From contig NC_091975.1 in the NCBI RefSeq assembly GCF_036711975.1, positions 188,501 through 252,500 on the forward strand: a DNA stretch of 64,000 nucleotides. Direction: 5' to 3'. The position numbers and the translations under genes are program-made. The DNA comes from Onthophagus taurus (lineage: Eukaryota > Arthropoda > Insecta > Coleoptera > Scarabaeidae). This document shows positions 9,441-62,790 of the stretch, piece by piece. Under the pieces are notes generated by a model. It made no database searches, had not been told where the DNA came from, and was given only the letters and a program-made list of their open reading frames with translations. Every line of letters starts with the position of its first letter. The stretch's first letter is position 1.

Positions 9441-11330
9441 TAAGTAAAATTAAAAAGATTATATCTACAAAACGAAAAATTGTAGAGTCTTCAAATTTTC
9501 AACAAAATAAAGATTAATTCTTGCTTTATAATCCCAAAAAGTTTCATTTCTTAAATCCAATAAATTTATTAACAAATAATTTTTTAATTAATCACGTAAA
9601 TAATTGCTAGCTGTTAGGTTAGGTAAAATTAAAAAGCTTATATCTACAAAACGAAAAGTTGTAGAGTCTTCAAATTTTCAACAAAATAAAGATTAATTCT
9701 TGCTTTATATCCTCAAAAAGTTTCATTTCTTCAATCCAATAACTTTACTCAGAAATAATTTTTTAATTAATCGTGTAAATAATTGACAGCTGTTAGGTTA
9801 CATTAAATTAAAAAATTCATATCTACAGAACGAAAAGTTGTAGAATTTTGAAATTTTCAACAAAATAAAGAATAATTCTTACTTTATAATTTCAAAAAGT
9901 TTCATTTCTTAAATCCAATGACTTTATTCAGAAATTATTTATTAATTAATCATGTAAAAAATTGACAGCTGTTAGGTTAGATTAAATTAAAAAAATCATA
10001 TCTACAAAACGAATAATTGTAGAATCTTCAGATTTTCAACAAAATAAAGATTAATTCTTACTTTATAATTTCAAAAAGTTTCATTTCTTAAATCCAATGA
10101 CTATATTCAGAAATTATTTTTTAATTAATCATATAAAAAATTGGCAGTTGTTAGGTTAGATTAATTTAAAAAAATCATATCTACTAAACGAAAAGTTGTG
10201 GAATCTTTAAATGTTCAACAAAATAAAGATTAATTCTTGCTTTATAATCCCAAAAAGTTTCATTTCTTAAATCCAATAAATTTATTAAGAAATAATTTTT
10301 TAATTAATCATGTAAATAATTGCTAGCTGTTAGGTTAGGTAAAATTAAAACGTTTATATCTACAAAACGAAAAGTTGTAGAGTCTTCAAATTTTCAACAA
10401 AATAAAGATTAATTCTTGCTTTATATCCTCAAAAAGTTTCATTTCTTCAATTCAATAACTTTACTCAGAAATAATTTTTTAATTAATCGTGTAAATAATT
10501 GACAGCTGTTAGGTTACATTAAATTAAAAAATTCATATCTACAGAACGAAAAGTTGTAAAATTTTGAAATTTTCAACAAAATAAAGAATAATTCTTACTT
10601 TATAATTTCAAAAAGTTTCATTTCTTAAATCCAATGACTTTATTCAGAAATTATTTATTAATTAATCATGTAAAAAATTGACAGCTGTTAGGTTAGATTA
10701 AATTAAAAAAATCATATCTACAAAACGAATAATTGTAGAATCTTCAGATTTTCAACAAAATAAAGATTAATTCTTACTTTATAATTTCAAAAAGTTTCAT
10801 TTCTTAAATCCAATGACTATATTCAGAAATTATTTTTTAATTAATCATGTAAAAAATTGGCAGTTGTTAGGTTAGATTAATTTAAAAAAACCATATCTAC
10901 TAAACGAAAAGTTGTGGAATCTTTAAATGTTCAACAAAATAAAGATTAATTCTTGCTTTATAATCCCAAAAAGTTTCATTTCTTAACTCCAATAAATTTA
11001 TTAAGAAATAATTTTTTAATTAATCATGTAAATAATTGCTAGCTGTTAGGTTAGGTAAAATTAAAACGTTTATATCTACAAAACGAAAAGTTGTAGAGTC
11101 TTCAAATTTTCAACAAAATAAAGATTAATTCTTGCTTTATATCCTCAAAAAATTTCATTTTTTCAATCCAATAACTTTACTCAGAAATAATTTTTTAATT
11201 AATCGTGTAAATAATTGACAGCTGTTAGGTTACATTAAATTAAAAAATTCATATCTACAGAACGAAAAGTTGTAGAATTTTGAAATTTTCAACAAAATAA
11301 AGAATAATTCTTACTTTGTAACCACAAAAA
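9441..11330. repeat. 179-bp satellite, array 1, with four-monomer higher-order repeat
   Basis: About ten and a half monomers of 179 bases, all containing TTTCAACAAAATAAAGA, AAAAAGTTTCATTTCTT and CAGCTGTTAGGTTA-like words. Monomer variants follow the order a-b-c-d (starts near 9620, 9799, 9978, 10157), then a-b-c-d again from about 10336 and a-b from about 11052, giving a 716-base higher-order period. Each variant is recognised by fixed differences such as GGTAAAATT (a), CATTAAATTAAAAAATTC (b), CGAATAATTG (c) and ACTAAACG with GGCAGTTG (d). Confidence 0.9.
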
Positions 11331-12923
11331 GTTTTGAGGTGATCCACAAATTTTCATTGTAAATTTCTAAAAATATACCTTTTTGATAGATGAATTTTAG
11401 GAAGCTTTTCACCTTTTCGGTATGGTTCGATCTGGCATTTCTAAGGTATTGATTACCAGCACGAATTCAGGACACACCCCCTCCACTTTACGATAGGCTC
11501 CACCACCGGACCGCCCCTAAGTTTTCGATTAATATTTCGTTTAAACAATTTATCACAATTAGCCAAGCAAAAAATTTAGTCTAAATCATATTGAAGAAGT
11601 TAGCTTTTTCATACTAACAAGAGGTAAATAAGGAAACTTTTAAGACTTTATTAACTCTCTTGTTTTGAAAGACGATTCAACTAATTTGTTCTTCTTCGGA
11701 AGCAAAACTTTCACCTTTCTTTGCACACGACAAGTTCAAGTTGGGTGTAATTTTACCATAACCAGAGTTTCTGTCTGTTTTCTTTGTTGAGTGTAAATAT
11801 GCTTATTCGTCATAAATATGAAAGTGGAATTATGTAATTTCACACTATGATTTAATTAGTCTTCGCGGTTTATTCCCATTTCGAATCTTCTCCTTTTTTT
11901 TAATAAGATAGTAACGATTTCGAAGTTAGAACAATGAACATTAAGAATCTCATTGTTTTCTTTTTCTAATCTTTATGTTCACGTTGGTAAAAGTTAAAGA
12001 TAAATTAGAAAAGCAAGGACCTATTTTACAATTATTAGAACAACGGGGTCGATTTTATTACCTCGTAGGTGTGTATGTATGCAAATTTACGTTACACATG
12101 AGAACCATTAAGAAACCCTTTCGTTGCGCATTGCTTTAATTTTTATTTCTTAAAAATCTTAATCGTTTGAGAGAATTTGATTTAACTAAATTTCTTTCTT
12201 GTATCCTTCGTGTATGACCTATTTGCATAGCACAACGATTACTTTAGATTGTGGTATACCATTAGATCACCTCTTTTATTGCGTACGACGTTTTGTAATC
12301 CATTAGCACTCTGTGGCAGTGTTATGCCCGAGCATAATCACTTCCTTTCCAGTCGTGACAAGGTTAAATAATTTGTTAATTAAATTTTTTTTATCACTTA
12401 TCTAAAACCATTAAGATTTTCTTTTCACATTCAACGTCAATTAATTTTTTAAATCGAAAATGTTAAAAGATAAATAATTCCTCCGGGAGCCAAAAACAAT
12501 TTAAAACCTTATTCTTCTTTTCTAGCTGGGTTCTTTTCACTTTCATTTAGAAGAGAAGCTTTACAACCAGCCAATAAAGCACGTACGAGTTGAACGTTTT
12601 ACGACCACCGCTACGTATGTACAAAATCTTCGTGGTAAGATGGCATTTCTCTTGTGCGCATTTCCTTTATGATTGTATTACGCCACAAAAGTAATTATTA
12701 TTCTTTATGAACACCAAACTTGGACAAAGGAATCACATTTTTTTTTATTTTTAGAGAAAAACACGAAAAAAACTGCAGAAAAAGGAATGAAAAGAATGCT
12801 CTAACATTTTCGTTCGATTTGTTATGGGCGAAGAGGAAAAGGATGCGGGGCCAAGATTTTCCGGGAGATAAAGCAACAAAGGAACCGGACGATTTTCTCG
12901 AACGCTAACCGGAAGTGCTGGTC
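11331..12923. other. Spacer between the two satellite arrays
   Basis: AT-rich DNA without a recognisable gene. Short ORFs here (for example 12720-12908) look like chance reading frames. Confidence 0.5.
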
Positions 12924-13242
12924 ATTCAATCTTTGATACCCAATTGGTTCCTAAATCGCTCACCAATTCCCCTTTTTTACGTTAAACAAAAATGAAGATG
13001 TTATTTATCAAATAAATCATCACATTTTCAACGAACTAGTCCGCTTTGAAAAATTATTTTTACTTTTTGACATACAAAGCTTTAAACTGAATATAAGATT
13101 TTGTTAATTTTAAAGTTATTTAAATAAATTTGTGAAAAATCAATTTTTTAATGTATCCATATGAAATATTCTCCAAATCTCAATTAAAGCATCTACCCTT
13201 CAACGAATAAGTCTGTTTTGAAAAATCATTTTTAGTCTTTGA
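12924..13242. repeat. Direct duplication flanking satellite array 2, left copy
   Basis: About 319 bases beginning ATTCAATCTTTGATACCCAA and ending TTTTAGTCTTTGA, repeated in the same orientation at 16799-17120 with a few differences. The second satellite array lies exactly between the copies. Confidence 0.9.
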
Positions 13243-16200
13243 TAACTTTACTCAGAAATAATTTTTTAATTAATCGTGTAAATAATTGACAGCTGTTAGG
13301 TTACATTAAATTAAAAAATTCATATCTACAGAACGAAAAGTTGTAGAATATTGAAATTTGCAACAAAATAAAGAATAATTCTTACTTTATAATTTCAAAA
13401 AGTTTCATTTCTTAAATCCAATGACTTTATTCAGAAATTATTTATTAATTAATCATGTAAAAAATTGACAGCTGTTAGGTTAGATTAAATTAAAAAAATC
13501 ATATCTACAAAACGAATAATTGTAGAATCTTCAGATTTTCAACAAAATAAAGATTAATTCTTACTTTATAATTTCAAAAAGTTTCATTTCTTAAATCCAA
13601 TGACTTTATTCAGAAATTATTTTTTAATTAATCATGTAAAAAATTGACAGCTGTTAGGTTAAATTAATTTAAAAAAATCATATCTACTAAACGAAAAGTT
13701 GTAGAATCTTTAAATGTTCAACAAAATCAAGATTAATTCTTGCTTTATAATCTCAAAAAGTTTCATTTCTTAAATCCAATAACTTTATTAAGAAATAATT
13801 TTTTAATTAATCATGTAAATAATTGCTAGCTGTTAGGTTAGATAAAATTAAAAAGTTTATATCTACAAAACGAAAAGTTGTAGAGTCTTCAAATTTTCAA
13901 TAAAATAAAGATTAATTCTTGCTTTATATCCTCAAAAAGTTTCATTTCTTCAATCCAATAACTTTACTCAGAAATAATTTTTTAATTAATCGTGTAAATA
14001 ATTGACAGCTGTTAGGTTACATTAAATTAAAAAAATCATATCTACAAAACGAATAATTGTAGAATCTTCAGATTTTCAACAAAATAAAGATTAATTCTTA
14101 CTTTATAATTTCAAAAAGTTTCATTTCTTAAATCCAATGACTTTATTCAGAAATTATTTTTTAATTAATCATGTAAAAAATTGGCAGTTGTTAGGTTAAA
14201 TTAATTTAAAAAAATCATATCTACTAAACGAAAAGTTGTAGAATCTTTAAATGTTCAACAAAATCAAGATTAATTCTTGCTTTATAATCTCAAAAAGTTT
14301 CATTTCTTAAATCCAATAACTTTATTAAGAAATAATTTTTTAATTAATCGTGTAAATAATTGACAGCTGTTGGGTTACATTAAATTAAAAAATTCATATC
14401 TACAGAACGAAAAGTTGTAGAATCTTCAGATTTTCAACAAAATAAAGATTAATTCTTACTTTATAATTTCAAAAAGTTTCATTTCTTAAATCCAATGACT
14501 TTATTCAGAAATTATTTTTTAATTAATCATGTAAAAAATTGACAGCTGTTAGGTTAAATTAATTTAAAAAAATCATATCTACTAAACGAAAAGTTGTAGA
14601 ATCTTTAAATGTTCAACAAAATCAAGATTAATTCTTGCTTTATAATCTCAAAAAGTTTCATTTCTTAAATCCAATAACTTTATTAAGAAATAATTTTTTA
14701 ATTAATCATGTAAATAATTGCTAGCTGTTAGGTTAGATAAAATTAAAAAGTTTATATCTACAAAACGAAAAGTTGTAGAGTCTTCAAATTTTCAATAAAA
14801 TAAAGATTAATTCTTGCTTTATATCCTCAAAAAGTTTCATTTCTTCAATCCAATAACTTTACTCAGAAATAATTTTTTAATTAATCGTGTAAATAATTGA
14901 CAGCTGTTAGGTTACATTAAATTAAAAAAATCATATCTACAAAACGAATAATTGTAGAATCTTCAGATTTTCAACAAAATAAAGATTAATTCTTACTTTA
15001 TAATTTCAAAAAGTTTCATTTCTTAAATCCAATGACTTTATTCAGAAATTATTTTTTAATTAATCATGTAAAAAATTGGCAGTTGTTAGGTTAAATTAAT
15101 TTAAAAAAATCATATCTACTAAACGAAAAGTTGTAGAATCTTTAAATGTTCAACAAAATCAAGATTAATTCTTGCTTTATAATCTCAAAAAGTTTCATTT
15201 CTTAAATCCAATAACTTTATTAAGAAATAATTTTTTAATTAATCGTGTAAATAATTGACAGCTGTTGGGTTACATTAAATTAAAAAATTCATATCTACAG
15301 AACGAAAAGTTGTAGAATCTTCAGATTTTCAACAAAATAAAGATTAATTCTTGCTTTATATCCTCAAAAAGTTTCATTTCTTCAATCCAATAACTTTACT
15401 CAGAAATAATTTTTTAATTAATCGTGTAAATAATTGACAGCTGTTGGGTTACATTAAATTAAAAAATTCATATCTACAGAACGAAAAGTTGTAGAATCTT
15501 CAGATTTTCAACAAAATAAAGATTAATTCTTGCTTTATATCCTCAAAAAGTTTCATTTCTTCAATCCAATAACTTTACTCAGAAATAATTTTTTAATTAA
15601 TCGTGTAAATAATTGACAGCTGTTGGGTTACATTAAATTAAAAAAATCATATCTACAGAACGAAAAGTTGTAGAATCTTCAGATTTTCAACAAAATAAAG
15701 ATTAATTCTTACTTTATAATTTCAAAAAGTTTCATTTCTTAAATCCAATGACTTTATTCAGAAATTATTTTTTAATTAATCATGTAAAGAATAGGCAGTT
15801 GTTAGGTTAAATTAATTTAAAAAAATCATATCTACTAAACGAAAAGTTGTAGAATCTTTAAATGTTCAACAAAATAAAAATTAATTCTTGCTTTATAATC
15901 TCAAAAAGTTTCATTTCTTAAATCCAATAACTTTATTAAGAAATAATTTTTTAATTAATCATGTAAATAATTGTTAGCTGTTAGGTTAGGTAAAATTAAA
16001 AAGTTTATATCTATAAAACGAAAAGTTGTAGAGTCTTCAAATTTTCAATAAAATAAAGATTAATTCTTGCTTTATATCCTCAAAAAGTTTCATTTCTTCA
16101 ATCCAATAACTTTACTCAGAAATAATTTTTTAATTAATCGTGTAAATAATTGACAGCTGTTGGGTTACATTAAATTAAAAAATTCATATCTACAGAACGA

Positions 16201-16758
16201 AAAGTTGTAGAATCTTCAGATTTTCAACAAAATAAAGATTAATTCTTACTTTATAATTTCAAAAAGTTTCATTTCTTAAATCCAATGACTATATTCAGAA
16301 ATTATTTTTTAATTAATCATGTAAAAAATTGGCAGTTGTTAGGTTAGATTAATTTAAAAAAATCATATCTACTAAACGAAAAGTTGTAGAATCTTTAAAT
16401 GTTCAACAAAATAAAAATTAATTCTTGCTTTATAATCTCAAAAAGTTTCATTTCTTAAATCCAATAAATTTATTAAGAAATAATTTTTTAATTAATCATG
16501 TAAATAATTGCTAGCTGTTAGGTTACATTAAATTAAAAAATTCATATCTACAGAACGAAAAGTTGTAGAATCTTCAGATTTTCAACAAAATAAAGATTAA
16601 TTCTTACTTTATAATTTCAAAAAGTTTCATTTCTTAAATCCAATGACTTTATTCAGAAATTATTTTTTAATTAATCATGTAAAAAATTGACAGCTGTTAG
16701 GTTAGATTAATTTAAAAAAATCATATCTACTAAACGAAAAGTTGTAGAATCTTTAAAT
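13243..16758. repeat. 179-bp satellite, array 2
   Basis: Roughly nineteen to twenty monomers of the same 179-base family as array 1. The variant order is less regular: several monomers join the first half of type b to the second half of type c (near 14014), and a run of near-identical b-type units occupies about 15250-15700. This is the pattern left by repeated unequal exchange. Confidence 0.9.
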
Positions 16759-19276: not shown

Positions 19277-21442
19277 TATTATTATTATTATTATTATTGC
19301 TGCCGGGCTGAGGAGGGCGGCCCCTCTTGTTACCGCGACCTATAAGATCTATTGTAACTTTAGCCCTCCAAAGGTTTAGGGCAAATGTAGGTCCTTAATG
19401 AACCTTAGTATTGTCCTAAGGTCTTGAACCTTTATGTCGGTAGATAACAGGGGAGTTTTACCGAAGACGTTGTGCCTTAGACGTCCTCTGGCGACGCAAT
19501 TGTACAGTATATGTTCAGCAGTTTCTGACTCGTCGTTGCATAGTCGACAAGTTTGATCCTCAGCTTGTCCAATGTGGAAGAGGTGGTATTTTAGGGGCAC
19601 ATGGCCGGTCAGGTAGCCTGAGAGCGTTCTTTATTTGAGGCATAAAACCTCTTTGGTTTTGTTTTGCGATGGAGTTATCATACTCTGTGACCTGGAAGTT
19701 CTTTCCAGCGTATCTTTGAAACCTACCAGTTGTTGATTATTTGTTTTAGGTGGCTTTTTTGTAGTCCACATCCAGGTTGGGGTCCAATGAAGGGCGTGTT
19801 TGCTGCCTCTTTGGCCAGCTTGTCGGCCTTCTCATTGCCCTCAATGTTGCTATGACCTGGAACCCACCATAGGGTAACATCATTGCCCCTAGCGAGTTCT
19901 CTCAGGTTGTTGGTGCACTCTCTGATCAGTGCGGAGCCACACGTGTAGGACTGAATTGCCTTTAAGGCGGCCCGACTGTCTGTGAAAATGTTTATGGTTG
20001 CTCCTTTTTGTCCCTTCTGTAGGTTCAAAGCGGTGCAGAAGTTTATAGCAAGAACTTCTGCTTGGAAAATTGTTAAGTCCGAGCTGAGGGGCAATTTGAT
20101 GTGGCTATTTGGTCCACTGATGCCCATGCCTACTCCAGATCTTACTGTCTTTGAAGCATCGGTGTACCAGGCTAGGGCTCCTCTTTTTAGTTGAGGCCCA
20201 ATCATCCCTGCTACTAAATATGACCTTATACGGTTGGTTGAAATTGTATTCCGTCGGTATAAGGTCCGTTTTAATTTCAATCAGGTGATTTAGACATGGG
20301 TCTTTGAGGATCTCGAGGTGTCCTCTGAGATTACCCTGCATCAACTTGAGTGAAGAAACTGTTTTCAGTGATAAGGCACTTAAGGCTGCCTCCTTTTGTA
20401 TATATATGTGGAGCGGTGTGAGACCAAGTAGGGCTTCCAAAGCAGCCGTTGGACAGGATCTCATTGCACCCGTTATGTTAAGACATGCTAACCGCTGGAT
20501 TTGTGCCAGCTGTTGTTGAGCTGTCTTATGTTTTGTTTTTGGCCACCAAACCAATGAGGCGTAGGCGACCATGGGTCTGATTATTGCTACGTAGGCCCAA
20601 TGAGCCATTCGTGGTTTGAGACCCCAGTTCCTTCCTAGGAGCCTGCGGCAGATCTGGTTTGCCATGATGGCCTTTTTCCTCACCTTATCTAAGTGTGAGT
20701 TCCAGTTTAGTTTACTATCAAGTATTACCCCTAGGTATTTAGTTTCTGTTTTGAGGTTAATAGTTCTGCTTTCAATGGAGGGTGCTTTTATTTGTAGCTT
20801 CCTTCTCCGAGTGAAAGGGACTATTTCGATTTTATTGGGATTGATGCTGAGCCCATTGCTTCTGCACCAAGTACTGGTGAGTAGTGGGGCTTTCTGCATT
20901 AGCTGAGTTATGAGTGAATCATATTTATCTCGGATTGTGATTACCAGGTCATCAGCATACCCTTGTATCTTAAATCCGTTTTTAGTTAGGGTGTTCATCA
21001 AGTCATCAACTACCAGGCACCATAATAGAGGTGATAGCACTCCCCCTTGGGGACATCCTCTTAGCGCCTTTATAGTCAGCGACTCGCCTCCCAGACTGGC
21101 TGTGATCTGCCGACTTTTCAACATTTTACGTTTAAAGCCTTCTCTATGGATTCATATGAGGTGTTATCAAACGCACCCTCTATATCTATGAAAGCACAAA
21201 GGGCTATCTCTTTGGTTGCAATTGCCTCCTCTAAGGTGCTAGTCAAAGCATGGAGAGCGGTAATTGTTGATTTTGCTTTCTGGTAAGCATGTTGGCTAGG
21301 GTGGAGTGGATTTGTGAAAAGCACTCCATTCCTTAGGTATTGATCGATTACCTTTTCCATCCCTTTGAGGAGAAATGAAGTTAGGCTAATTGGTCTGTAC
21401 GCCTTGGGGTCCGCGTTTGAACGCCTACCACCTTTAGGTATG
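19277..21442 (-). mobile_element. 5'-truncated I-type non-LTR retrotransposon
   Basis: Reverse transcriptase begins at AYRPISLTS and continues with CAFIDIEGAFDN, RGCPQGGVLSPLLW and GYADDLV (the catalytic YADD). A ribonuclease H domain follows (YTDASKT, TDSRAALKAI, VPGHSNIEGNEKADKLA), then a CRLCNDESETAEHILYNC zinc-knuckle tail. RNase H plus a 3' (TAA)n tail (19277-19299 on the minus strand) is characteristic of the I clade. The 10-base target duplication ACAAAGGCTT lies at 19267-19276 and 21443-21452. The endonuclease end is missing, and frameshifts near 21120, 20240 and 19720-19600 break the ORF, so the copy is dead. Confidence 0.93.
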
Positions 21443-22878: not shown

Positions 22879-25800
22879 TCAAAAACTGGTCTGAATATCA
22901 TTTTTTTCCGCCAGCCCTTGTTGTAATTTTTTCACTTCCCCGGCTGGAATATCATCGTCAGCTTCCAAAGCCGGATTTATCCTACCATTTCGTTCATCTT
23001 TTCCAACCATGGTATTAGCAGCACCGTACATTTTATTCATCCCCGCCGCCATAACCGACATTTGCTCACCATCTTCTTGTAATTCACTCACCCTTTGGAT
23101 ATCCTCTGGAATGTTAACGACGCAATTAAAAATGTCGTAACCGGGCGCCAATGTTCCACTTTCAAATAAGATCTTAGTTCCATACGAAACGGTTATTAAC
23201 GTAACTAAAGAGAAAATCATCGCCATCGTTCTAAAGGGGAATAATTGACGTTGCTCTTCATAATCGAATCCAGGGTAATAAATGAAAGGATCTAAACCCA
23301 TCAAAGGTTCTCCGCCAGATATCCTCACCACAAACGCAATGATATAAGCCGCTAAACTTCCGTACGTATTGCAATAATCTTTAAAATGAACTACCATTAG
23401 TAATTGAGGAAACAAAATTACGTAAACTAGATCAGAACACATCGACCATAATCCATAAATCGATGGTATAGTTAAAGCCATAATTGTCGCCAAAACACCT
23501 ACTACCAAAATCGATACTCTCATCACCCAGATTATTTCCATTTCCGACGCTCTTTGCCGAAAGATTAATTTATAAACGTTTCTGGCAAACATCGAACTCG
23601 CCGATAAAACACTTGAATCAGCCGAAGACATTACAGCGGCCGAAACGGCTCCTAATCCGAAAAACGAAACGAAATCTGGTGTTAAATATTGAAGCACCAT
23701 CGGCAAAATCATACTGGTTTCTTCTACGGTTAATGGCCAAGGTCCTTTATACTGAGTTTCATTCCAATCTTTAAGAAAAAATATTTAAGGTTTTCAATTT
23801 TTTCACCAATATTTTATATAACCATAATATTTTTTTTTAAAGGAGCATAAACACAACAATTTGTAAAAGACACTTAAATAATTGTGAATAGATAATTAGT
23901 TCTAGAAATAAAAATGGCTAATTTTTCTTGATATTGACACATCTGAGAGCAAAGAAAGCGGCCCATCTTGGTTGTTTATGAATATGTCTCGTTTCAACTT
24001 TCACAATATCTTTAATAACCTTTCTGGTTGAGAACTTTAATGTAAATTGTATTAACCCTTTGAGTCCCGACGGTACTTTAAAGTACCGGTAGTTTTAAAC
24101 ACTCATTTTAAACTGTAGAATTTTTAAATTAGCATCTTTTTTGACACTTTTAGGTTATACGAAAATGTAAGTTTTATTTCAACTTTTCTTTTCTCAATAT
24201 TTTTCCAATCCAACCCAACGATTATTATATATCATTCAAAAAAGAAAGCTTTGAGCTTTAATTTAGAATAAGTTTCACTCCTTAATTTCAATCAATACGG
24301 CTTCCAGGAATTTTTAAATTAGCATCTTTTTTTACACTTTAGGTTACACGAAAATGTAAGTTTATTTCAACTTTTTTTTTCTCTATATTTTTCCAATCTA
24401 ACCCAACAATTATTATACATCATTTTAAAGAGAAAGCTTTGAGCTTTAATTTAGAATAAGTCTCATTCCTTAATTTCAATAAATACGGCTTCCAGGAATT
24501 TTTAAATTAGCATCTTTTTTGACACTTTTAGGTTATACGAAAATGTAAGTTTTACTTCAACATTTTTTTTCTCTATATTTTTCCAATCTAACCCAACAAT
24601 TATTATATATCATTTTAAAGAGAAAGCTTTGAGCTTTAATTTAGAATAAGTCTCATTCCTTAATTTCAATAAATACGGCTTCCAGGAATTTTTAAATTAG
24701 CATCTTTTTTGACACTTTTAGGTTATACGAAAATGTAAGTTTTACTTCAACATTTTTTTTCTCTATATTCTTCCAATCTAACCCAACAATTATTATACAT
24801 CATTTTAAAGAGAAAGCTTTGAGCTTTCATTTAGAATAAGTCTCATTCCCTAATTTCAATAAATACGGCTTCCAGGAACTTTTAAATTAGCATCTTTTTT
24901 GACACTTTTAAGTTATACGAAAATGTAAGTGTTGTTTCAACATTTTTTTTCTTAATATTTTTCCAATCCAACCCATCAATTATTATACATCATTTTAAAA
25001 GGAAAGCTTTGAGCTTTAATTTAAAATAAGTCTCATTCCTTAATTTCAATAAATACGGCTTCCAGGAATTTTTAAATTAGCATCTTTTTTGACACTTTTA
25101 GGTTATACGAAAATGTAAGTTTTACTTCAACATTTTTTTTCTCTATATTTTTCCAATCTAACCCAACAATTATTATACATCATTTTAAACAGAAAGCTTT
25201 GAGCTTTAATTTAGAATAAGTCTCAATCCTTAATTTCAATAAATACGGCTTCCAGGAATTTTTAAATTAGCATCTTTTTTGACACTTTTAGGTTATACGA
25301 AAATGTAAGTTTTACTTCAACATTTTTTTTCTCTATATTTTTCCAGTCTAACCCAATAATTATTATACATCATTTTAAAGAGAAAGCTTTGAGCTTTAAT
25401 TTAGAATAAGTCTCATTCCTTAATTTCAATAAATACGGCTTCCAGGAATTTTCAAATTAGCATCTTTTTTGACACTTTTAGGTTATACGAAAATGTAAGT
25501 TTTACTTCAACATTTTTTTTCTCTATATTTTTCCAATCTAACCCAACAATTATTATATATCATTTTAAAGAGAAAGCTTTGAGCTTTCATTTAGAATAAG
25601 TCTCATTCCTTAATTTCAATAAATACGGCTTCCAGGAATTTTTAAATTAGCATCTTTTTTGACACTTTTAGGTTATACGAAAATGTAAGTTTTACTTCAA
25701 CATTTTTTTTCTCTATATTTTTCCAATCTAACCCAACAATTATTATACATCATTTTAAAGAGAAAGCTTTGAGCTTTAATTTAAAATAAGTTTCATTTCT

Positions 25801-26991
25801 TAATTGCAATAAAGACGGCTTCCAGAAATTTTTGAATTATGCGAAAATAGGGGGATTGCATATTTTGCTAAAATTGATTCCAAAGGCCTTTACTGAGTGG
25901 TGTATTTTGATAGCGTTTTAATTCTGTCACAAAGGTTCAAAATTTTTTACTTCTTGGGACACAAAGGGTTAATTTTGTTAGTGTTGTGCTTACACTTCAT
26001 TCAAAAAAAATAATATTTTTGTTAAAAGCAACTTACTAGTTGATTTGGCTATAGCACCAATTAAAACCGGTGGTATGGCCATTAAAATACATCCAAAAGC
26101 TGCGACGTAAGATAAAATTTGTGCGCGACCAGCCGATTTGCTCGATAAAACTCTTTGGAAGTAAACCTGCCAGGGGATACCCCCGAAAACTAACAACAAC
26201 CCATAATCGATATAATACCACAGCTCTTTTGAATCAACGGAACCAATCCAATCAACGTCCATCGATGATAACGGCTTGACGTGTTCGTTCATCCACGCAA
26301 ATGGAATACACATCCATAATCCGATAAATATACAAAATAATTGAATGACGTCTGTGTAAGCAACGCTATACAATCCGCCAAATAACGTATAAAAAACTGC
26401 GATGCACGAGCTGAAAATAACACTCGTTCGATGATCCATGTCGATGATGACGCTCAATGTGGCTCCCAAGGCGGCTAAAATCCCCGCGGCCCAGAAAACT
26501 TCACCACATAACGCTGGAAGGAAGAGTAATCCACCCATTCGACTCCCAAAACTGTCTTGGAGCGGATCCAACATCGTGATGTAACCTTGTTGTCTCATCT
26601 TATTGGCGAAAAAAATCCCTCCGAAGACTAAACTTAAAGAGTAGCCGAATGGAGCTTGGCACCAAACTAAACCATACCTGAAAATTGCTTCTGCCGTACC
26701 ATTTATGTATCCACCACCAACCCAAGTTGCTATAAAAAAATTCATTAATAACAATTAGTTTTGAGTATTAAATAAAATTCATTTCAAAACTAATCGATTT
26801 GAAGCATTAACGTTCAATAACTCACCGGTCATAGTAAAAATCCCAACGAAAAGGCCAATATTTCTCCCGGCCAACATGACCTCTTCTTCAGAATCATTAC
26901 CACTCTCCTTTTTTCGGCCAGCCCAAATCCCAACTCCCAAAATTAATATGTAGAAAAGTATAATCGAAATAACTCCAGCTATATTTATCAT
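22879..26991 (-). CDS. ChT: High-affinity choline transporter
   Basis: Sodium-dependent choline transporter of the SLC5 family, which supplies choline for acetylcholine synthesis in cholinergic terminals. Three exons: 26991-26826, 26729-26037 and 23768-22879; phases agree and give 582 residues. Seen: [20 protein letters not shown] at the N-terminus, [85 protein letters not shown], then [20 protein letters not shown] and [19 protein letters not shown], with about thirteen membrane helices. The cytoplasmic tail contains [17 protein letters not shown], as in fly orthologues. The intron 23769-26036 is mostly a piggyBac-like element with tandem repeats. Identification is secure. Confidence 0.96.
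24056..25968. mobile_element. piggyBac-like non-autonomous element
   Basis: Flanked by TTAA on both sides (24052-24055 and 25969-25972). The ends CCCTTTGAGTCCC and GGGACACAAAGGG are inverted repeats matching at 12 of 13 bases. TTAA duplication and CCCTTTG termini are the hallmark of piggyBac-type elements. No transposase is present; the interior is a tandem array. It lies in the second ChT intron. Confidence 0.9.
24113..25830. repeat. 190-bp tandem repeat inside the piggyBac-like element
   Basis: About nine copies. The word TCCAGGAATTTTTAAATTAG recurs near 24303, 24491, 24681, 24871, 25061, 25251, 25441 and 25631, a 190-base step after the first. Each unit also has GCTTTGAGCTTTAATTTAGA and CCAATCTAACCCAACAATTA. 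Copies are very similar, so the expansion is recent or homogenised. Confidence 0.93.
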
Positions 26992-27128
26992 TTTGACTTT
27001 TTAATTGATTCAAAATCGAATTGATTTAAAACTTAATTGATTCAAAACTTAATTTTTGCAAACTTAATTTTAACTTCTTGATCCCGATGATTTAAAACGA
27101 AAATTGTTAGACAACAGTCGCCCCACCT

Positions 27129-27490: not shown

Positions 27491-27924
27491 TTGTCGATAA
27501 TGAATAAATTATTTGAGGGGGAAAATAAATAAAAATTACTTTTATAATAATATTCAAAATTTTTAGTGAATTTTTTAACTTAATTTCCTTTTTGATTATT
27601 TATGGTTTAAATAGAAAGTAGTGACATCTCTTAATACGTGTGGAAAGTTTGATTGGATTGATTGGTTGCCTAACTAAATTTGAATTAAATTTGTTTTTGT
27701 AATGATTTATTTGATAACACAATAATAAATAAACAATCAATACTGATGATTTTTCAAAATTAAAGACTTTGTTGGTTAATCCTTTTGAATGTTATTATTG
27801 CGGAGTGGTACTCTAATGATGCTATTTCTGCTAAAATTTGTTAAGCCAACAACTGGGGATTTTACAATTGTTTCCTAAAATCAAAAAAGAAATGATTTTT
27901 TATTTTAATTTGAAGTATATGTTA
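27491..27924. other. Intergenic AT-rich spacer between ChT leader and ILP
   Basis: No coding exon or recognisable element is seen. Confidence 0.5.
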
Positions 27925-28541
27925 TTAAACCTTGTTAATAATGGGATTTCTGGTGTTAATACATTTGCAGGAACAACTTTTCTTTTTTGGGTTAGTATTT
28001 TTTCGATTTTTTTTCTTGTTAGATTTTCTTTTATTACCAACCTCGTCCACGAAATGTCTTCGATAATTATTTCCGTTTTTTAAAGATTCATCTTTTTGCA
28101 TATTCCTCGAAACTTCATCCGAATACGAAGGGATCTCTTCAATAAAACCCTTCGGAGTTGTTGGGGATTGCTTCATAATGGAATCTCTATATTTAAAATC
28201 ATTTAAAACTTAAAAATTATTTAGTTATTTTTTTTTTCTTACATATTAGATTGGCTACAATAACTTTTAACCAAATCATATTCGGAACACCTTTGAAAAC
28301 AACATTCTTTAACTATCCCAGTGTAGCCAACTACGTAATCCAAAGCTTTTTCTTCTAAAATAAGAACAATTTAAATACAATTTTTTAAGGTTTTGTGCTT
28401 ACCGTGATATACACAATTATATTTCATTAAAGTATCGCCTAAGACTGATCCGCAGAAATATCTCGGTTGATGCACGTTCATTGCTTCGGTGTAAATGATG
28501 AAACATACCATCTTGATCATAATAATCGCCTTTTGATCCAT
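27925..28541 (-). CDS. Insulin/IGF-like peptide precursor with C-terminal extension
   Basis: Three exons: 28541-28403, 28354-28243 and 28186-27925, phases consistent, 170 residues. After a weak signal peptide (MDQKAIIMIKMVCFIIYTEA) comes a B-chain with YFCGSVLGDTLMKYNCVYH, then a 12-residue connector (EEKALDYVVGYT) without a dibasic site, then an A-chain GIVKECCFQRCSEYDLVKSY-C. All six insulin cysteines are present: two in B and C-C, C, C in A. The third exon adds about 85 residues after the A-chain, with basic stretches (RR, KRKSNKKKNRK, PKKK) and a C-S-C-K-C end. The uncut connector plus the C-terminal extension resembles IGF-like peptides of arthropods rather than two-chain insulin. If the second intron were retained, translation would stop one residue later, just after the A-chain. 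Confidence 0.9.
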
Positions 28542-29859
28542 TTATTTGGGTTTGATTCGGAGTCTAAACGCAAATAAACCAAGTCAAAGAAGAATTTTCG
28601 TTTTATATACTTTTTGGGTAGTAACTGATACCCGGATAAGGTTACTGGTTGTAAGAATTGGTTTTTGAGGGTTGATTTAACCGTGAAATTAGAAAATATT
28701 TTTTTGTTAATCGAATATTAAATTTATTGATTTAATTTGATCGAAAACCAAATTAAAATTACTTACATATTTTTATTTAAGAAAGATAACTTCAAATTAT
28801 GACTTAATTAAAAAAATTTATACACATAATTAGACGAAAGGAAATTTTCAGTCAAAACACTAGAAAGGAGATCTTTCGAAATCATATTTTATAGACAGAT
28901 CTGCATTTATTAATACTTTCTTATCTAATAAACCAAAATGAATTCCGATAAAAGTAAAAAAGGTAGAGTAAAAAGAATTCGGTAAGGATAACAACTGGGA
29001 GAGTACACTTTAAACTGGCACAAACAACAAACTGAACACAAAACGGAGTTTTAATCTTTACTCTTCGTCCTCTTCGCGATTCCATCTCTAAAAATTAATA
29101 ATAAAATAATAAAGGATTTTATTTATTAAAAAAATAAATAAAAAGGTTTCACAATATACCTAAATTTAAGAAAAAAAATTTGACATCTAATAATTATTTT
29201 ATACAAGACTTTTTTATTATTGTTATATGTAATCTTCAGAAGTTATTTACGGGATTCGTAAACATTGAGAACGTTTCCAAGAACGCTATTGATTACAATA
29301 CTCAGCAATTTTTTTTTACTTTATGGAATCCCTTATCATAAGTTCGTCTCTTTTTGAAAACGTGGCAACTAGACGGCGGGAGAGATATCTTACAGAGTCG
29401 TGTTCCTCCTGAATGCAAATAATTAAACGTGGGTTAAGGAGGTTATCGATTAAAGAGTATAAAAGAAACTGGACGCATGTGTGATAAATAAAATTCCATT
29501 TTATCGTTTTACCTGAATTAAAATTAACAAGAAATTAAATAAAAATTGGGAAAAAAATATATATGGGAATTAAGAATAAAAGAATTAACACCATAAAATT
29601 GCATTAAAAAAATAAAATCGTGATGATTTTGTAATTTTTAAAAATTTGTAGAAAATTTATTTTGATAGATTAATACAGTTAATACGCCATCTATTATTGA
29701 AGTGATCAAATACAGTAAATAATAATAACAAGGAAACTGTTAATAAGCTTTTCGAAAATAATTTCAAAATTATATAATGTTGTGATGGATATCTGGCCAT
29801 TATGCTTATAATTTCTGGTACATTTCTGAAGTGATACCCTACATTGCCATATTAATGTT
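28542..29859. other. Upstream of ILP; largely non-coding
   Basis: Mostly AT-rich DNA. On the minus strand near 29060-29090 an acceptor-like sequence precedes a nine-codon acidic ORF end (RWNREEDEE-stop), and another acceptor/donor pair brackets fifteen bases near 29420. These could be tiny exons of an unrecognised gene, but the support is too thin for a call. Confidence 0.35.
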
Positions 29860-32800
29860 TAATGTTTATTTATATGTCAAAAAAAAGTTTTTGGACAGAC
29901 GTCATACAAAATATATATGTATACTTCAACAATGAGTATCTAAAACAGTAACTTAACTAATACAGTTCGGTCATACGGTGGACATTACTTAGGAATTCTT
30001 CTACCGAGTAAAAGGCCTCAGACACCAAAAAATGTTTAACACGATTTTTAAAACGCGCGGTGTTCATGTTCTTTATGCAATCCGGTAGTTTGTTATAAAG
30101 TTTTGTACCCTGGTAGTCCACACCTTGTAGAGTACACCCTTATAGAGTTTTTTTGTCGCGTATTATATTCGTGATGTACGGAGTTTATGTCATAGAGATG
30201 TGTATTATTATGTACATGGTTAACACAGGTAAGGATGTACAGGGTGGTTCAAATTCGATGTCCGAATAGGCTAACTCGGAAACTATAAGAGTTAGAAAAA
30301 AAGTAGCTTACATGTCATGATCTCGTTTTTCGAGAAACTGCTAATGCCGAAAACCTCATAGCGCTATCGTCTTTTGTTTTTCCCCTAGAGGCCAAAATTG
30401 AAAATATCGTAAAACCAATAAGTGCAATTATCTTGGTTATTATTATAGGTGGAGTATTATAACTACGACATTATATGAACACTTTTTTACAGAGAATTTA
30501 ATGACATAGTCAAAAAAAATTTTTCGGTTTTAGATTTTGAGATATCATGAGAACTTTCGTTTTTTTAAATGGAAACAACCACTGATTATTCGCTTATTAA
30601 ATTCGTTATTTTTTTCTGATTACAAAAATATAGGGTTCAACAGGTCTATTTCTTATTGTTTTAGAATAAAACTAAAAATAAACTTTTTTTATAAAATTTC
30701 CATCTAGTATCGTCGAGGAAATTAAATTTACAGTTTCCTGTAAATTACGGGGCGGTAGGTAAAATTTAAAAAGTTAACAATTAAATACGAAGATAACTTC
30801 TGGTATTTAAAAACAAATAATTTTTTAATATGTAACATTCTAAACGTTTTAAAATTTTTGTAATTGGTCTTAAAAACGGGATTTTTAAAGTGACACTTCA
30901 GAAAATTTTTGAATACAAACAAATGTTGCTATGTTTATTTGAATTAAAAAAAAACATATGAGCGCCATCTATCGATAATTTATTAAGTCATTTAAAAATA
31001 ATATTAAATCGTAATAAACAATGTGAAATAATGCAATCTATTCCAACTTTTGTGTAAAACATATATAGATTAAACAGTTCAACAAATATATTTGTTTCAA
31101 ATATCAAAAATATGTTTTTTTAATTTTTAGTTATAGAACCGTAATTTACAGGAAACTGTAAATTTAATTTCTTTGACAACACTAAAAGAAAAGTTTATTT
31201 TTAGTTTTATTCTAAAACAATAAGAAATAGACCTGTCAAATCCTATATTTTTGTAATCAGAAAAAAATAACGAATTTATTAAGCGAATAATCAGTGGTTG
31301 TTTCCATTTAAAAAAACGAATTTTGTGATAATATCTCAAAATCTAAAACCGACAAAATTTTTTTGACTACGTCATTAAATTCTCTGTAAAAAAGTGTCCA
31401 TATAATGTCTTAGTTATAATACTCCACCTATAATAATAACCAAGATAATTACGTTTGCGGGTTTTACGATATTTTCAATTTTGGCCTCTAGCGGAAAAAC
31501 AAAAGACGATAGCGCTATGAGGTTTTCAGCATTACCAGTTTCTCGAAAAATGAGATCATGTCATGTGAGCTATTTTTCTTCTAACTCATATAGTTTTCGA
31601 GTTAGCCTATTCGGACATCGAATTTGAACCACCCTGTACATGCAGGGCACGGTAAGTATATCAATTTTTTTAAAATGTTCTTTACATGATTCTAAATTTT
31701 TTAGATTACACAAAGTGCGGATACAACTCTTTTGTAGCTTAAACACCCTGTTGATTCCCGGACCCGAACCCCAAATGGAGATGCCATATGAGGCCACTGC
31801 ATGAAAACAAGAGAAATATGCTGTTCTTACTACTTCAGGTTCGGTACACTTCACCAATCTTCGCACCATAAAAACTGCACTCGCGAGTCTTCTACAAAGG
31901 GCACTCACATGGTCATCCCAGGTGAGACGATTGTTCAACTTCAAGCCAAGAAAGTTCACCACGTTATCGTTTCCTTTCGTGAGAAAGTTAATTTTTTGTT
32001 AATTAAATTAACATCGTTAGTTCTCAATTGTGTTTCTTCTCTCGTTTTCCCTTTTACTACGAACGACGTATCATCCGCATATAGATACGTTTCTGAGTTT
32101 TTTATGTTTCGAGGAAGATCGTTCATATACAGTATAAATAAGATCGGTCCCAGGATTGATCCTTGGGGTACACCGTATCTATTGTTTTTCACATCGGATA
32201 TTGAACCATTCCAAGCGACATATTGTGTTCTGTTACTCAGATACGATTTCATTAGACTTAGTGTTGATCCCCGTACGCCGTAAAAGGCGAGCTTATCCAG
32301 TAATAGATTATGGTCCACCGTATCAAAAGCTTTGGTGAGGTCGCAACAGGTCATTTCCACGCTTTCTCGATTGTCATGAGCTGTGATCGTCGATCTTCCG
32401 GTCCTGTAACCATGTTGGCTATCGTCAAATATTTTATTTTTTTGCAAGTAGCTGATTAGTCGGCGTTTTATTACTTCTTCGAAGATTCGGTCTGTAATTT
32501 GAGCAATCGTTGTCATCTCCTTTTTTGTAGATTGGAACGATCCTGGCCTGTTTCATCCTTTCGGGAAAAACTCCCTCTTCAATACATTTGTTTAAAACCA
32601 TACAAAGCGGTTCAGAGATTTCATTCGCAACTTTCTTTACAACAGCTGTTGAATGTCCATAGACATCTTCGCTCTTTTTGGTTTTTAAATGATTAATTAT
32701 ATTTGTTATCTCGTCTTTGGTACAGGGATTAAAGTAAAGACTTTTTGAAAAAATTCTTGCTGTATTCTTTACGTAAACGTTGGAACTCGTCGTTGTCGGA

Positions 32801-34453: not shown

Positions 34454-36066
34454 TTAATAAAAAATTCGTTCCATTTTTACATAAATGGGTTTTGCAGATA
34501 TCAGAAGAATGTTATTTTTGTTATAATCCAATTTATAATCGGTTTTTGAATGTGGTTTTAGTGAATAATTTGATAAAATTGTTACGAGTGCCACTTTTAT
34601 TTGCGCTATTCCAAATCTTTCAGCTGAAAATAAAAATTCGTTAAAAATTAAATTATTAATTTATTGCAAAACCTACCTATACATTTTCTAGGACCAATAC
34701 CGAAAGGTAAAAATGTATATGGAGGAATGTTGTCTTTATTTAGATCAGAAAATCGTTCAGGATCAAATTTTTGTGGATCAGGAAAATAATCTTCATCCCA
34801 ATGTAAAGCTAATGGGTTAATAAAAACTTTCATTCCTTTCTTAATATCAGGACCGTTTAAAATCTGGTAATCTTTCGTACATTTTCTAGGAATAGTCGGA
34901 GCTGAAGGATGCTTTCTTAAAGTCTCGTATAAAACCTGATCCATATATTTAAATTCAGATAAGCATTCATAAAAAAATCCATTATATTTCTTCAAAATCA
35001 ACCTGATTTCATCCCTAATTTTATCTTGAACCTCTTGATGATGAGCCAATTCGTGTAAACAATAAGTTGTTGTACTCGAAGAAGTCTCAAATCCAGCCGA
35101 AAAAAATAAAAATGAATTTGCAAGCATTTCCTCGTAAGTTAAAGCAATTTCACCTTCTTCCAAAGCTTTTTGTTTCAAATCTAAAAGAATTTGAACGAAA
35201 TCGTTACGTTTTATCATCGTTTTTTCACGATAATCAAACATATCCTTAAATATTGTTTTAAAAAAGTTATCAGCTTCCTTTTTTAACACTTTAAATCGAA
35301 GATATTTGATCAACCAGGGAGCCGTAAAAGCAACAACCCTTCTTATTTTTAAATCAAAACGTTCTTCAAAACACTGCCTACCGTACCTCCTAAAGACATC
35401 ATCCTGGTTAAAACAATCACATTCAAATCCAAAAATACAAGTTCCGATAACGTTTGTAAAAAACCTCCCGCACAATTCAGAAATATCTATTTCAAATTCA
35501 TGGTGGTTTTGTTGATTTAAAAATTTTTTTAACGGTATTGTTGAATTTTTTAACGTTTCGAACATCGATTTTAATTTTCCCGATGAAAATGTTGCTGTAA
35601 GTTTTGACCTTAACACTTTCCAATCGTTTTCTTCAATATTAAACAGTGTTAATGTGAAAACATCTTTTTTGTCGTATTGAAGTCCGTGGCTTAAAAAGTA
35701 ATCGTGATCTTTAACCAAAATCGTTTTAATTAATTCCGGATCGATTATTGTCAACATCGGAGATGTAATAGCGTACGTTCCGAAATATTTAGCTCCTTGT
35801 TTTTTAAAATTCCTGTAATGCTCCAACATCGAGAAGTGAAATCCTTTCTTAAAAAATCCTGCAATCGTAAAACTTCCAAATGGAAATGTTGGTTTCACGT
35901 GGGGAACGTTTCTTTTTTTCCAATATGACCAAGCATAATGGAAATAACTTGTAACGATTATCGTTGTTAATATGAGAGTTAGAGTTAATGTTGTGATTAA
36001 AAATTTAATCAAATCTTTGTAATTTCTGAAATATTTTGGGATTAAGAAGTCGAAGGAGATGGTCAT
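34454..36066 (-). CDS. Cytochrome P450, CYP6-like (CYP3 clan)
   Basis: Two exons: 36066-34677 and 34623-34454, 519 residues. Haem-thiolate mono-oxygenase anchored in the endoplasmic reticulum by an N-terminal helix (LIKFLITTLTLTLILTTIIV). Seen in order: the I-helix AGFETSSST, the K-helix ETLRKHP (ExxR), the PERF motif (DPERFSD), and the haem loop FLPFGIGPRKCIAERFG with the cysteine ligand. The spliced loop has alanine where glycine is usual after C-x. Length and the single late intron in the haem-binding region fit insect CYP6 genes. Substrate cannot be read from sequence; family members oxidise plant toxins and insecticides. The reading frame is open 11 codons further upstream but without an ATG, so 36066 is the start. 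Confidence 0.93.
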
Positions 36067-36099
36067 TTTTTTAATGTTGATAATGACTGGTTGTTTCAA

Positions 36100-37937
36100 A
36101 ATGAATAATAAATGTTGTCGTTAATTTTTTATTTGGGTAACAAAATTAACTGGAGTGGGCTACACGCAACTTTCTCATTGTATAACTCTAATAAGCGTTA
36201 TTTTGAGGATTTAAAGACTTATTGTATTAAACTTAAGAAAATGTTAATAATTATAAAAATATTTTTATAAAAGACTATTTACTGATGAATTCACTTATGT
36301 GTTATTGGCCGTTGATGTTTTCTATTGTATATAACCCATGTAAAGTCGATACAAAGTAATTTTAAAGACATATAATTTTTTGACAGATAGATAACCTCAA
36401 ATTGATTTTTTCTCAATTTCTTATTCAAATCCGTATTTAAACAGTTAAAGCTATTGAAAATGATAATCTTAGCATAGTAAGAATACAAAACAGCCGTCCT
36501 TTTTGTGAATTAATGAAGTTTTAAATGAAAATTCATAATCTCAAGATTTAAGCATTTTGGGAATTTTACCGTTGAATATAGAAGAAAATGACCAGATATC
36601 TGTAAAGCAATTAAAAGAAGCATTAAAACTACAAGATTTCATACATAAATATAGTTATTAAAAAAAAATTAAATAATATTTAATCAAATTAAATTAGTGA
36701 CATTTAAAATGTTAAAGTTGGTAATATCAGAAAATATTAAAAACGAATTTCAAGTTAATGAAATTGACCAATCAGGAAACACTATTTTTCAATTTCAACA
36801 TTAAACAAAGGAAAATTAAAAATTTTAGTTTGATTTTGAACTTGAGAGGGAACGCACGCAAGTTTTGTCTCGTCCAACATTATAAGCAACGTTTTAGGTT
36901 ATGTAAAAGGATAAATGTTGACATAACCTCAAAAAAAAAGGATTTTAAGAATTTCTCCGATCCAAAGAAAAGAAATAATAACCCTCATGAAGAAACATCA
37001 TTTTGGTTCCCGTTCCTGATAATCCCTGAATCCTGTACCGTGGACTTATTTAACCTACAACCAACAGACTAAGATAAGTGTTATTTTCTTTACATTTATT
37101 GTTGTTAATTTAGTTAACAATTCACTTACCTTCCATACGAAAGATAATTCCGAGATATTACTCATAATAATTCATTTCGGTATAATTTAAGAATAGACAT
37201 GTCACTTAAAAATCAACAATCTTGCTTTTCTCAATGTAAAATCTGATAAAATCGCCCAGGCAAAACAAAACCGTCGTATTTTTAAGGAGAACAATTCGGT
37301 AGATGTCGCTGAAGTCTTGAAAACACGCACACTTACACGTATATGTATATATTTGACATTTGAATTTGACTTTGCAAATAATAAGGCTATTGAAGGCTAT
37401 CACGCGCGATTTAAACGGTTAAATTATATAGTTTATTATTTGAGTTTTCAAATGTGATTTAATAAAATTATGAATTTCCATTTTACATAATTTGAAGCAA
37501 ACCAAAAAAACAATACAGTATCTACACGTTTCTTTATTAGATTTGCTTAATATAAGTAGGTAACTTAAATAGAAAATAAAATAATATCATAAATTGGTGC
37601 AGTGAAAGTAAACCTTAAAAATTAATAAAAAAATTCCTGTCACACATACAAAAAAAATTATAATACTTTTAATTTATTGACTTTTTTCTTATTTTCTAAA
37701 CAATATTCTACAACGAATATCGACAAACTTGTTCAATGATGAAATATTTACACAATACTATCACAGTTATCATTTTGTTTTGTCAGAAATTGGCTATAAA
37801 TAATTAAAGCTACATACTTAACTTTATATTCTTCGAGTATTTTGCTTTTTATTTAAATTTTATTAAATGATTGTCGATTTGTATACTTACATTACTCTTT
37901 TTTTAAATGAACAGAAGCGATTTGAGCAATTTTAACT
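36100..37937. other. Intergenic region between P450 and sevenless
   Basis: No coding exon or recognised element. The portion next to 37938 should be the sevenless 3' untranslated region. Short ORFs such as 36758-37072 show no protein-like features. Confidence 0.45.
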
Positions 37938-60854: not shown

Positions 60855-62790
60855 TAAACTAAAATTAGAACTAAAACTAGAACTAACACTAGAAACTTTC
60901 GGGTTTTGCCGTGCGTCTTTTAATAAAAGGTTTGACGTTTCGGATCCCATGTTGCAACCTTCAAAAGAAGGCACTCCGATCTATAAAAGAAAAGTCAGAA
61001 ATCGTCGTGTTACCAGCAGACAAGGGGAATGCCACCGTTGTTATGGACAGGAAAGAATACGACGACAAAATGATGAACCTACTGGACCCAGCCACCTACA
61101 GGAAGATCAAGAAGGACCCCACAGACAAAATCGTAAGAAAAATGAAGGAACTGATAAAAACCGCAGGAATTCCAGCAGAACAGCAGAAAGGTTTGTTTAT
61201 GCAGGCGCCGGTACCACCAAGAATCTACGGACTACCGAAGATTCACAAACCAGACGTCCCCCTCCGCCATATCGTCAGCGCCATCAACTCCCCAACATAC
61301 CAGCTGGCCAAACATCTTGCAAAGATTCTGTCTCCCTTTACAGGTAACACGGAATCGTATGTCAGGGATTCTACACATTTTGTGGAATCGGTAAAAGGTG
61401 TAAAGCTGGAGGCTGGGGATATGTTGGTAAGTTTCGATGTGGAATCCCTTTTTACTAGGGTACCAGTTAAGGATGCTGTAGAGGGTCTTCGCCGAAAACT
61501 CATTCCGGAGCGATTTACCAGAATACGTGCCAGATCTGGTGGAGTATCGACGTATTTCAGCTGGAAAGGAGAATTTTACGAGCAGTTCGAAGGGGCAGCC
61601 ATGGGATCTCCACTATCGCCAGTTATAGCTAATTTCTACATGGAATTATTCGAAGAGGACGCTTTGAAGAAGAGCCAGTGGAAACCAAAACTATGGCTAC
61701 GATATGTGGATGACACGTTTGTGATATGGCAACATGGTCAAAAACGGCTCCAAGAGTTTTTGGATCACTTGAACTCTCAACATCCTATGATTAAGTTCAC
61801 CATGGAAACAGAAACTGCCAAAAAACTACCTTTCCTAGATGTATTGGTCACCAGGACGACAAATGGAGATATAGAACTTGGTGTATACCGAAAGAAGACC
61901 CATACCAACAGGTATTTACAGGCATGTTCACATCATCATCCCCAACAGAAGAGGTCCGTGATCCGTACATTATTTCAGCGAGCAGCGAGACTATGTGAAG
62001 GAGAGAACTTGAAGAAGGAGCAACACTTTCTACGAGGCGTGCTGCAGAAGAATGGATACACTTCGAGGGACATCAACCAGGCCATCAAGCAGCGAAAGCA
62101 GAAAGAGTCTGTCTTCCCTATGTTTCAGGTATAACGGAACGAATTGCTAGGCACCTCAAGAAGAACGACATCGTAGTGCGGAACAAAATTCGGAACACAC
62201 TCCCGATAGCCAAGGACAAACTAACTCCATTAAAAGGAGCGGGAGTCTATCGACTATCGTGTAGTTGTGGGAAGGTTTATGTTGGCCAAACTGGACGCAA
62301 CGTCGAGTGCCGCATCAAGGAGCATGAGAGGGATGTAAGGCTGAAGAAGATCCAGCAGTCGGCGGTTGCGGAACATTGCCATGCAGAGGGGCACCGAATA
62401 GACTTCGAACAAACAAAGGTGCTGGCTAGGAACAACAGATACTACCAAAGACTGACAAGAGAAGCCATAGAGATCCACCGACATAAAAATAACGTTAACA
62501 GAGAGGATGGCTGGGAGCTTAGCAGAACATGGAAGATGGTGGTGAACACGAAGACCTCTTCCCGCCTCACACCGGACGCGACGCAATTAGTTATTAATTA
62601 GCTTGTAATTAGCGTTAACTGATTATTAATTAGTTTTTCCGACTTATATATAGTTACCGATTTTTGATCTCGTCACTTCGAACCAGTTTCTGAAGAAGGT
62701 TGCAACATGGCATCCGAAACATCAAACCTTTTATTAAAAGACGCACGGCAAAACCCGAAAGTTTCTAGTTTTAGTTCTAATTTTAGTTTA
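60855..62790 (+). mobile_element. Penelope-like element 1, nearly complete RT plus GIY-YIG
   Basis: Inverted ends of about 100 bases: ACTAGAAACTTTCGGGTTTT at left and its complement at right, each with AATAAAAGG and GCAACATGG words. The reverse transcriptase frame runs to 62134 (IVVLPADKGNATVVMD, PRIYGLPKIHKPDVPLR, SFDVESLFTRVP, GAAMGSPLSPVIANFYMELF, RYVDDTFVIW). A one-base frameshift around 62110-62125 separates it from the endonuclease frame (ITERIARHLKKNDIVVRNK, then GVYRLSCSCGKVYVGQTGR, RIKEHERD), which stops at 62601. The protein N-terminus is missing. A hammerhead core lies at 62686-62727. Confidence 0.93.
62686..62727 (+). ncRNA. Hammerhead ribozyme (minimal, PLE type) of element 1
   Basis: Plus strand, 42 bases. 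Stem I is GUUU/AAAC; the core CUGAAGA is followed by stem II (GG-U-UGC ... GCA-U-CC), then GAAAC; predicted cleavage follows AUC. Stem III reads ACAU here, slightly mismatched, whereas the inverted terminal copy near 60940 has the self-complementary ACGU followed by C but has lost the CUGAAGA core. Confidence 0.72.

Follow-up and report, generated by a model that had tools for sequence, protein, structure and literature searches.

The minus strand of the window, the whole stretch of 64,000 nucleotides of Onthophagus taurus DNA analyzed here, carries a real insulin-type gene which, on its architecture, very probably belongs to the arthropod IGF (aIGF) type, its orthology with aIGF genes being probable but not proven. 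When the 170-aa form proposed in the first-pass annotation was used in a protein search (8 candidates), two O. taurus proteins were matched at E up to 1. The O. taurus protein records comprise isoform X2 (P0002, 200 aa, a cluster of two sequences) and isoform X3 (P0003, 164 aa), and both were reproduced exactly by splicing the window sequence as four coding exons with GT-AG introns (Table 1). The existence of exact annotated proteins indicates that the gene is not a chance open reading frame. The isoform comparison covered X2 and X3, both annotation models; isoform X1 is presumably the other sequence in the P0002 cluster. The annotated record names the gene only as an 'uncharacterized protein', no paper naming it was found in literature searches, and the word 'Onthophagus' occurs 0 times in the main text of Veenstra 2020 (PMC7357564). 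Two protein searches (8 and 2 candidates) of a database clustered at 90%, in which shared 5-residue words are required, retrieved no aIGF from outside O. taurus, and aIGF membership was therefore judged by architecture. The gene is thus of a known kind (aIGF) and ordinary, with mildly unusual details, and no earlier name for it in O. taurus was found. These data support the proposal in the first-pass annotation that the precursor is IGF-like and long-tailed.

Table 1. Features of the O. taurus hormone gene, in window positions
Feature	Positions	Strand	Basis
Coding exon 1: N-terminus resembling a signal peptide, then B chain (C-x12-C) and first part of connector	28403..28541	-	exact P0002/P0003 rebuild
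Intron 1, 48 or 51 nt, with tandem acceptors (TAG and AAG) spaced by 3 nt	28355..28402	-	P0002, P0003
Coding exon 2: remainder of connector and A chain CC-x3-C-x9-C	28243..28354 (5' end 28354/28351)	-	P0002/P0003 rebuild
Intron 2, 56 nt, phase 2, GTAAGA...ATATAG	28187..28242	-	spliced in isoforms X2 and X3
Coding exon 3, part common to the isoforms, 48 codons past the split codon	28042..28186	-	P0003
Exon 3, alternative part: 37 residues, including CSCKC	27931..28041	-	in P0002, not in P0003
Intron 3, 56 nt (long form) / 167 nt (short form)	27875..27930	-	P0002/P0003 rebuild
Coding exon 4, ETIVKSPVVGLTNFSRNSIIRVPLRNNNIQKD + stop TAA	27776..27874 (coding 27874-27779, stop 27778-27776)	-	exact P0002/P0003 end
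AATAAA, candidate poly(A) signal ~65 nt past the stop codon	27706..27711	-	pattern only
TATATAAA, candidate TATA box ~60 nt 5' of the ATG	28602..28609	-	pattern only

The exon map corrects the extent of the precursor, which had previously been placed at 27925..28541. Its start at 28541 on the minus strand stands. The end at 27925 does not, since the apparent terminal valine and stop are the GTT TAA of intron 3 and exon 4 had been missed. Nor does the tail end in the CSCKC motif as had been proposed; the motif lies inside the alternative segment at 27931-28041, after which the long form has 32 more residues. Exon 1 ends at the phase 1 donor ACG/GTAAGC (the slash marking the exon boundary), and from here P0002 is spliced to the acceptor ending at 28352 and P0003 to that ending at 28355. 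The TAGAAG tandem acceptor (window 28352-28357) places either E or EE in the connector (HEK versus HEEK), both of which are annotated.

All six insulin-type cysteines claimed for the precursor were confirmed (residues 30, 43, 64, 65, 69 and 79 in the EE form), and they occur in the B-chain/A-chain order of the insulin superfamily. The usual insulin spacing is C-x11-C in the B chain and CC-x3-C-x8-C in the A chain. The gene departs from this spacing in both chains, with C-x12-C and CC-x3-C-x9-C respectively. The connector measures 15 residues from the second B-chain cysteine to GIVKECC; the 12-residue length given previously hinges on the chain boundaries chosen, whilst the reported lack of a dibasic site holds, none being present in residues 21-89. 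Scores against PF00049 were below the curated cut-off of 23 bits (18.5 bits for P0003 and 18.2 bits for P0002), and a six-frame PF00049 search of the beetle's own genome (E up to 1) missed the gene. The term insulin-type accordingly denotes an assignment from cysteine order, the GIVKECC motif and gene architecture, and not strict membership as judged by spacing or by the Pfam score. Among solved structures, the 170-aa form matched IGF-II best, although weakly (E 0.008), over query residues 11-84 only and leaving the tail uncovered. Vertebrate IGF-I and IGF-II combine a short connector with a C-terminal extension, features which the O. taurus gene shares alongside this weak insulin-part match. 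The resemblance of aIGF to vertebrate IGF could be convergent according to a passage of Veenstra (PMC7357564). Poxvirus F1 proteins, the next-best structure matches (E 0.02-0.05), and a Pfam DUF6434 hit on the 170-aa form (E 0.033, under its cut-off) were taken as chance. No NCBIfam match was found, and structure prediction yielded no usable model (mean pLDDT 31.1 from the single sequence and 36.4 from a 10-row alignment). The N-terminus is hydrophobic, with a peak of 2.37 at residues 7-17 amongst 10 sampled 11-residue windows.

Apart from the E/EE variation, the sole difference between P0002 and P0003 is a stretch of 37 residues of exon 3, and the annotated splice choice therefore sits at the exon-3 donors and not at intron 2. 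The short form uses the donor GAG/GTTGGT at 28041 and the long form AAG/GTTTAA at 27930. The 37-residue segment contains 11 Lys, 3 Arg and 3 Cys (in CSCKC), and has a net charge of +14, compared with -2 for the common part of exon 3 and +3 for exon 4. With a donor position weight matrix (PWM) built from just 14 donors, all taken from the ROS/sevenless gene next to it, GTTTAA (27930) scored 4.11 and GTTGGT (28041) 4.82. Two further exon-3 GT sites, unused in X2 and X3, scored 6.09 and 5.77, above the annotated donors, indicating that the annotated choice is not predictable from the PWM alone. GTAATA (28037) and GTATTA (27962), both phase 1, were rejected as exon-3 donors, as the annotated proteins use GTTGGT and GTTTAA.

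The first-pass annotation had located the switch between short and long forms in intron 2. Short and long forms made by splicing are annotated, as X3 and X2 respectively, but both splice intron 2, and its retention as a designed switch was rejected. The intron itself (28242-28187, phase 2) and the consequence of its retention, one Met and a stop, were reproduced from the sequence, the product being an 84-aa protein ending ...SQSNM. This Met-stop is generic to phase-2 introns and is expected by chance. Any phase-2 intron with a donor GTAA, GTAG or GTGA gives, if retained, one codon and then a stop, because retention reads NNG plus the next three intron bases. Comparison donors were obtained by mapping P0005, the ROS protein annotated for O. 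taurus, on the window (the first 60 of 2390 residues unmapped); donors of the Met-stop type were present in 10 of the 14 mapped ROS/sevenless introns, and all three of the phase-2 introns would stop at the second codon. Six of the same 14 introns are 54-63 nt long, which makes the 56 nt of intron 2 unremarkable, and the intron-2 donor score of 6.62 (PWM) falls within the neighbour-gene range of -0.99 to 10.56. Regulated retention yielding an 84-aa A-chain-terminated hormone, with splicing giving the long-tailed form, is on this evidence very improbable. In its favour are the Met-stop that retention does produce, the little pyrimidine tract of the acceptor ATATAG, and a honey bee aIGF isoform, described in a passage of Veenstra (PMC7357564), in which a second transcript arises via stop-codon inclusion; moreover, the protein-search length windows start above 84 aa, so that such a product could not appear there. 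The same source gives the identical read-through as the reason the extension gets missed, with overlooking of the intron donor leading to falsely short insulin predictions in aIGF genes, and describes such donors as functional per RNA-seq in several species. A second possibility, that the 170-aa form ending ...NPIINKV is itself produced, either because intron 3 is retained or because the transcript is cleaved at an AATAAA at 27904 within that intron, is likewise very improbable. The position of that AATAAA and the weakness of the long-form donor AAG/GTTTAA are consistent with it, but exon 4 is carried by both X2 and X3, and the 170-aa form as an exact query returned no 170-aa record from the 90%-clustered database, in which the P0002 cluster could hide one. 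As exon 4 exists, the 170-aa end was rejected as the main form.

The preferred assignment to the aIGF type derives from comparison with published genes. In the aIGF archetype, as set out in passages of Veenstra 2020 (PMC7357564), exons 1-2 code for the insulin part, two further exons code for the extension, exon 4 supplying the C-terminus, and an alternative site midway through exon 3 allows a basic and often Cys-bearing stretch to be included or left out, beetles being among the examples. The fat body is given there as the main site of aIGF expression. The O. taurus gene resembles this archetype in having four coding exons, the first two providing the insulin part and exons 3 and 4 the long extension; in its mid-exon-3 choice (at annotation level) around a basic, Cys-bearing stretch; and in a very short connector and a post-A-chain donor that is easily missed. 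These likenesses suggest that the gene is probably an aIGF orthologue. The 37-residue segment differs in composition, being Lys-rich with three Cys, whereas the corresponding stretch in Veenstra's account is dibasic-rich and mostly Arg, with two Cys in many species (PMC7357564). When exon 4 was compared with the aIGF consensus GTVx1Px2(F/Y), the best window agreed at 1 of 5 positions, a result matched by 5000 of 5000 shuffles; the passage describing the consensus has exon 4 fitting it 'more or less' and being less well conserved (PMC7357564). By eye and post hoc, the exon-4 motif TIVKSP resembles the consensus with two extra residues.

Amongst individual aIGFs, that of the locust has the first six of its ten cysteines spaced like insulin, a pattern from which the O. 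taurus chains differ by one additional residue each (passages of PMC8220825). Tenebrio molitor aIGFa and aIGFb are likewise splice forms of a beetle aIGF gene, both being listed at 162 aa, unlike the 200 and 164 aa of O. taurus; neither was detected by mass spectrometry in that study (PMC9552230). Alternative splicing is not universal in the sources, with no evidence for it in spiders or scorpions in a passage of PMC7357564, none found for locust aIGF in a passage of PMC8220825, and aIGF missing from the three cases of splice forms that a passage of PMC9552230 lists for Zophobas, also a beetle. Passages on Gnatocerus and Tribolium ILP3 (PMC6880982) describe a short C-peptide, usually no dibasic site, and an extended A/D domain, as here; those passages mention no alternative splicing, whereas O. 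taurus has two annotated forms. A short connector free of dibasic sites is a mark of the IGF-like subtype in passages of both PMC6880982 and PMC7357564. The sources differ over Gnatocerus weapon growth, which Veenstra credits to aIGF and PMC6880982 to the insulin-like GcorILP2, classing GcorILP3 as IGF-like.

A PF00049 search of the 290.8-Mb assembly detected 18 other places with an insulin A chain at E up to 1, of which 17 were over the Pfam cut-off; in a 2019 survey, the number of insulin genes in a beetle ranged from two to ten (PMC6585902). These places (L005-L022) are clustered on C11 (31.73-31.87 Mb), C1 (32.69-32.95 Mb), C6 (31.06-31.07 Mb) and C7 (31.43 Mb), and the five on C1 (one under the cut-off) are adjacent, with strands alternating -,+,-,+,-. 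They contain 17 distinct A-chain motifs, all with x8 spacing, and a B-chain-like match was present upstream of 14 of the 17, the nearest being x11 every time, and not found upstream of the other 3. The window gene thus has one extra residue per chain relative to the other O. taurus insulins found, a comparison biased in that those places were found with a canonical-spacing profile and the window gene was not. A dibasic site was read shortly before the A chain at 14 of the 18 places. When the genomic DNA is translated without splicing, each of the 18 ends 1-8 residues past the last cysteine; at three (L006, L012 and L020) the stop falls exactly at a would-be phase-2 GTGA, the same trap as in the window gene, so that these three may have spliced tails. 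It is unlikely, though less so than the alternatives above, that the window gene is a divergent insulin paralogue from outside aIGF whose tail was gained independently. Paralogues are common, with 17 other places over the cut-off, and spliced tails are possible at the three places with phase-2 GTGA stops; the off-canonical cysteine spacing, the missing strict exon-4 consensus and the Lys-rich segment would also fit such an origin, and a passage of Veenstra deems independent tail gain possible for Bombyx BIGFLP (PMC7357564). Against this, the four-exon architecture and a similar exon-3 choice would both have to arise twice, which favours the aIGF assignment.

The hormone gene is flanked upstream by a gene for a receptor kinase of the ROS/sevenless kind (P0005, 2390 aa) at ~37940-59470 (-), the longest of whose 14 introns is 5244 nt, with a cytochrome P450 open frame (PF00067, E 3.3e-81) between the two at 34648-36120 (-). 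Downstream are sodium:solute symporter family exons (PF00474) at 22879-27000 (-), presumably of a high-affinity choline transporter from their appearance. A foldback element upstream of the hormone gene (30235-31641) has 459-nt inverted arms, 93% complementary and 489 nt apart. Tandem arrays resembling satellite DNA, with units of 179 bp and 190 bp, were observed at 9447-11334, 13242-16758 and 24118-25839, the 190-bp array lying among the symporter exons. Reverse transcriptase frames (PF00078), remains of transposons, occur at 20105-21151 (-), 31956-32552 (-) and 60893-62134 (+).

The hydrophobic N-terminus suggests that the precursor would be secreted, and the hormone may stay a single chain because the insulin part is without a dibasic site. 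The insulin part would be expected to act as an agonist on an insulin receptor kinase, and the basic segment (+14) may alter fate after release, for example through carrier or matrix binding, half-life or receptor preference. A passage on locust aIGF similarly proposes that the second part may prolong half-life via a carrier and that two receptors may differ in preference (PMC8220825). Splicing would then set whether the hormone is made plain or sticky. The B19 and A20 cysteines of insulin pair with each other. A more radical and very improbable reading is that the aIGF of the horned-beetle lineage has been rebuilt, with these cysteines displaced by the one-residue insertions in both chains, such that the long form, with the odd number of cysteines in its basic segment (CSCKC), could form a covalent dimer or a mixed disulfide with a carrier and the short form could not. 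If this were true, the splice choice would govern whether a growth hormone linked to nutrition changes its oligomeric state or is retained in tissues, in a beetle whose horns depend on nutrition.

In the aIGF assignment favoured here the splicing biology fits the published pattern, whereas the extra residue in both chains and the presence of a third cysteine in the tail may come as a surprise to specialists. Horn growth that depends on nutrition is studied in O. taurus as a model, and the insulin/IGF-like pathway is implicated in it in a passage of PMC12973629. Naming this gene as aIGF-type would give those working on horn growth a specific ligand and two measurable isoform-specific junctions.
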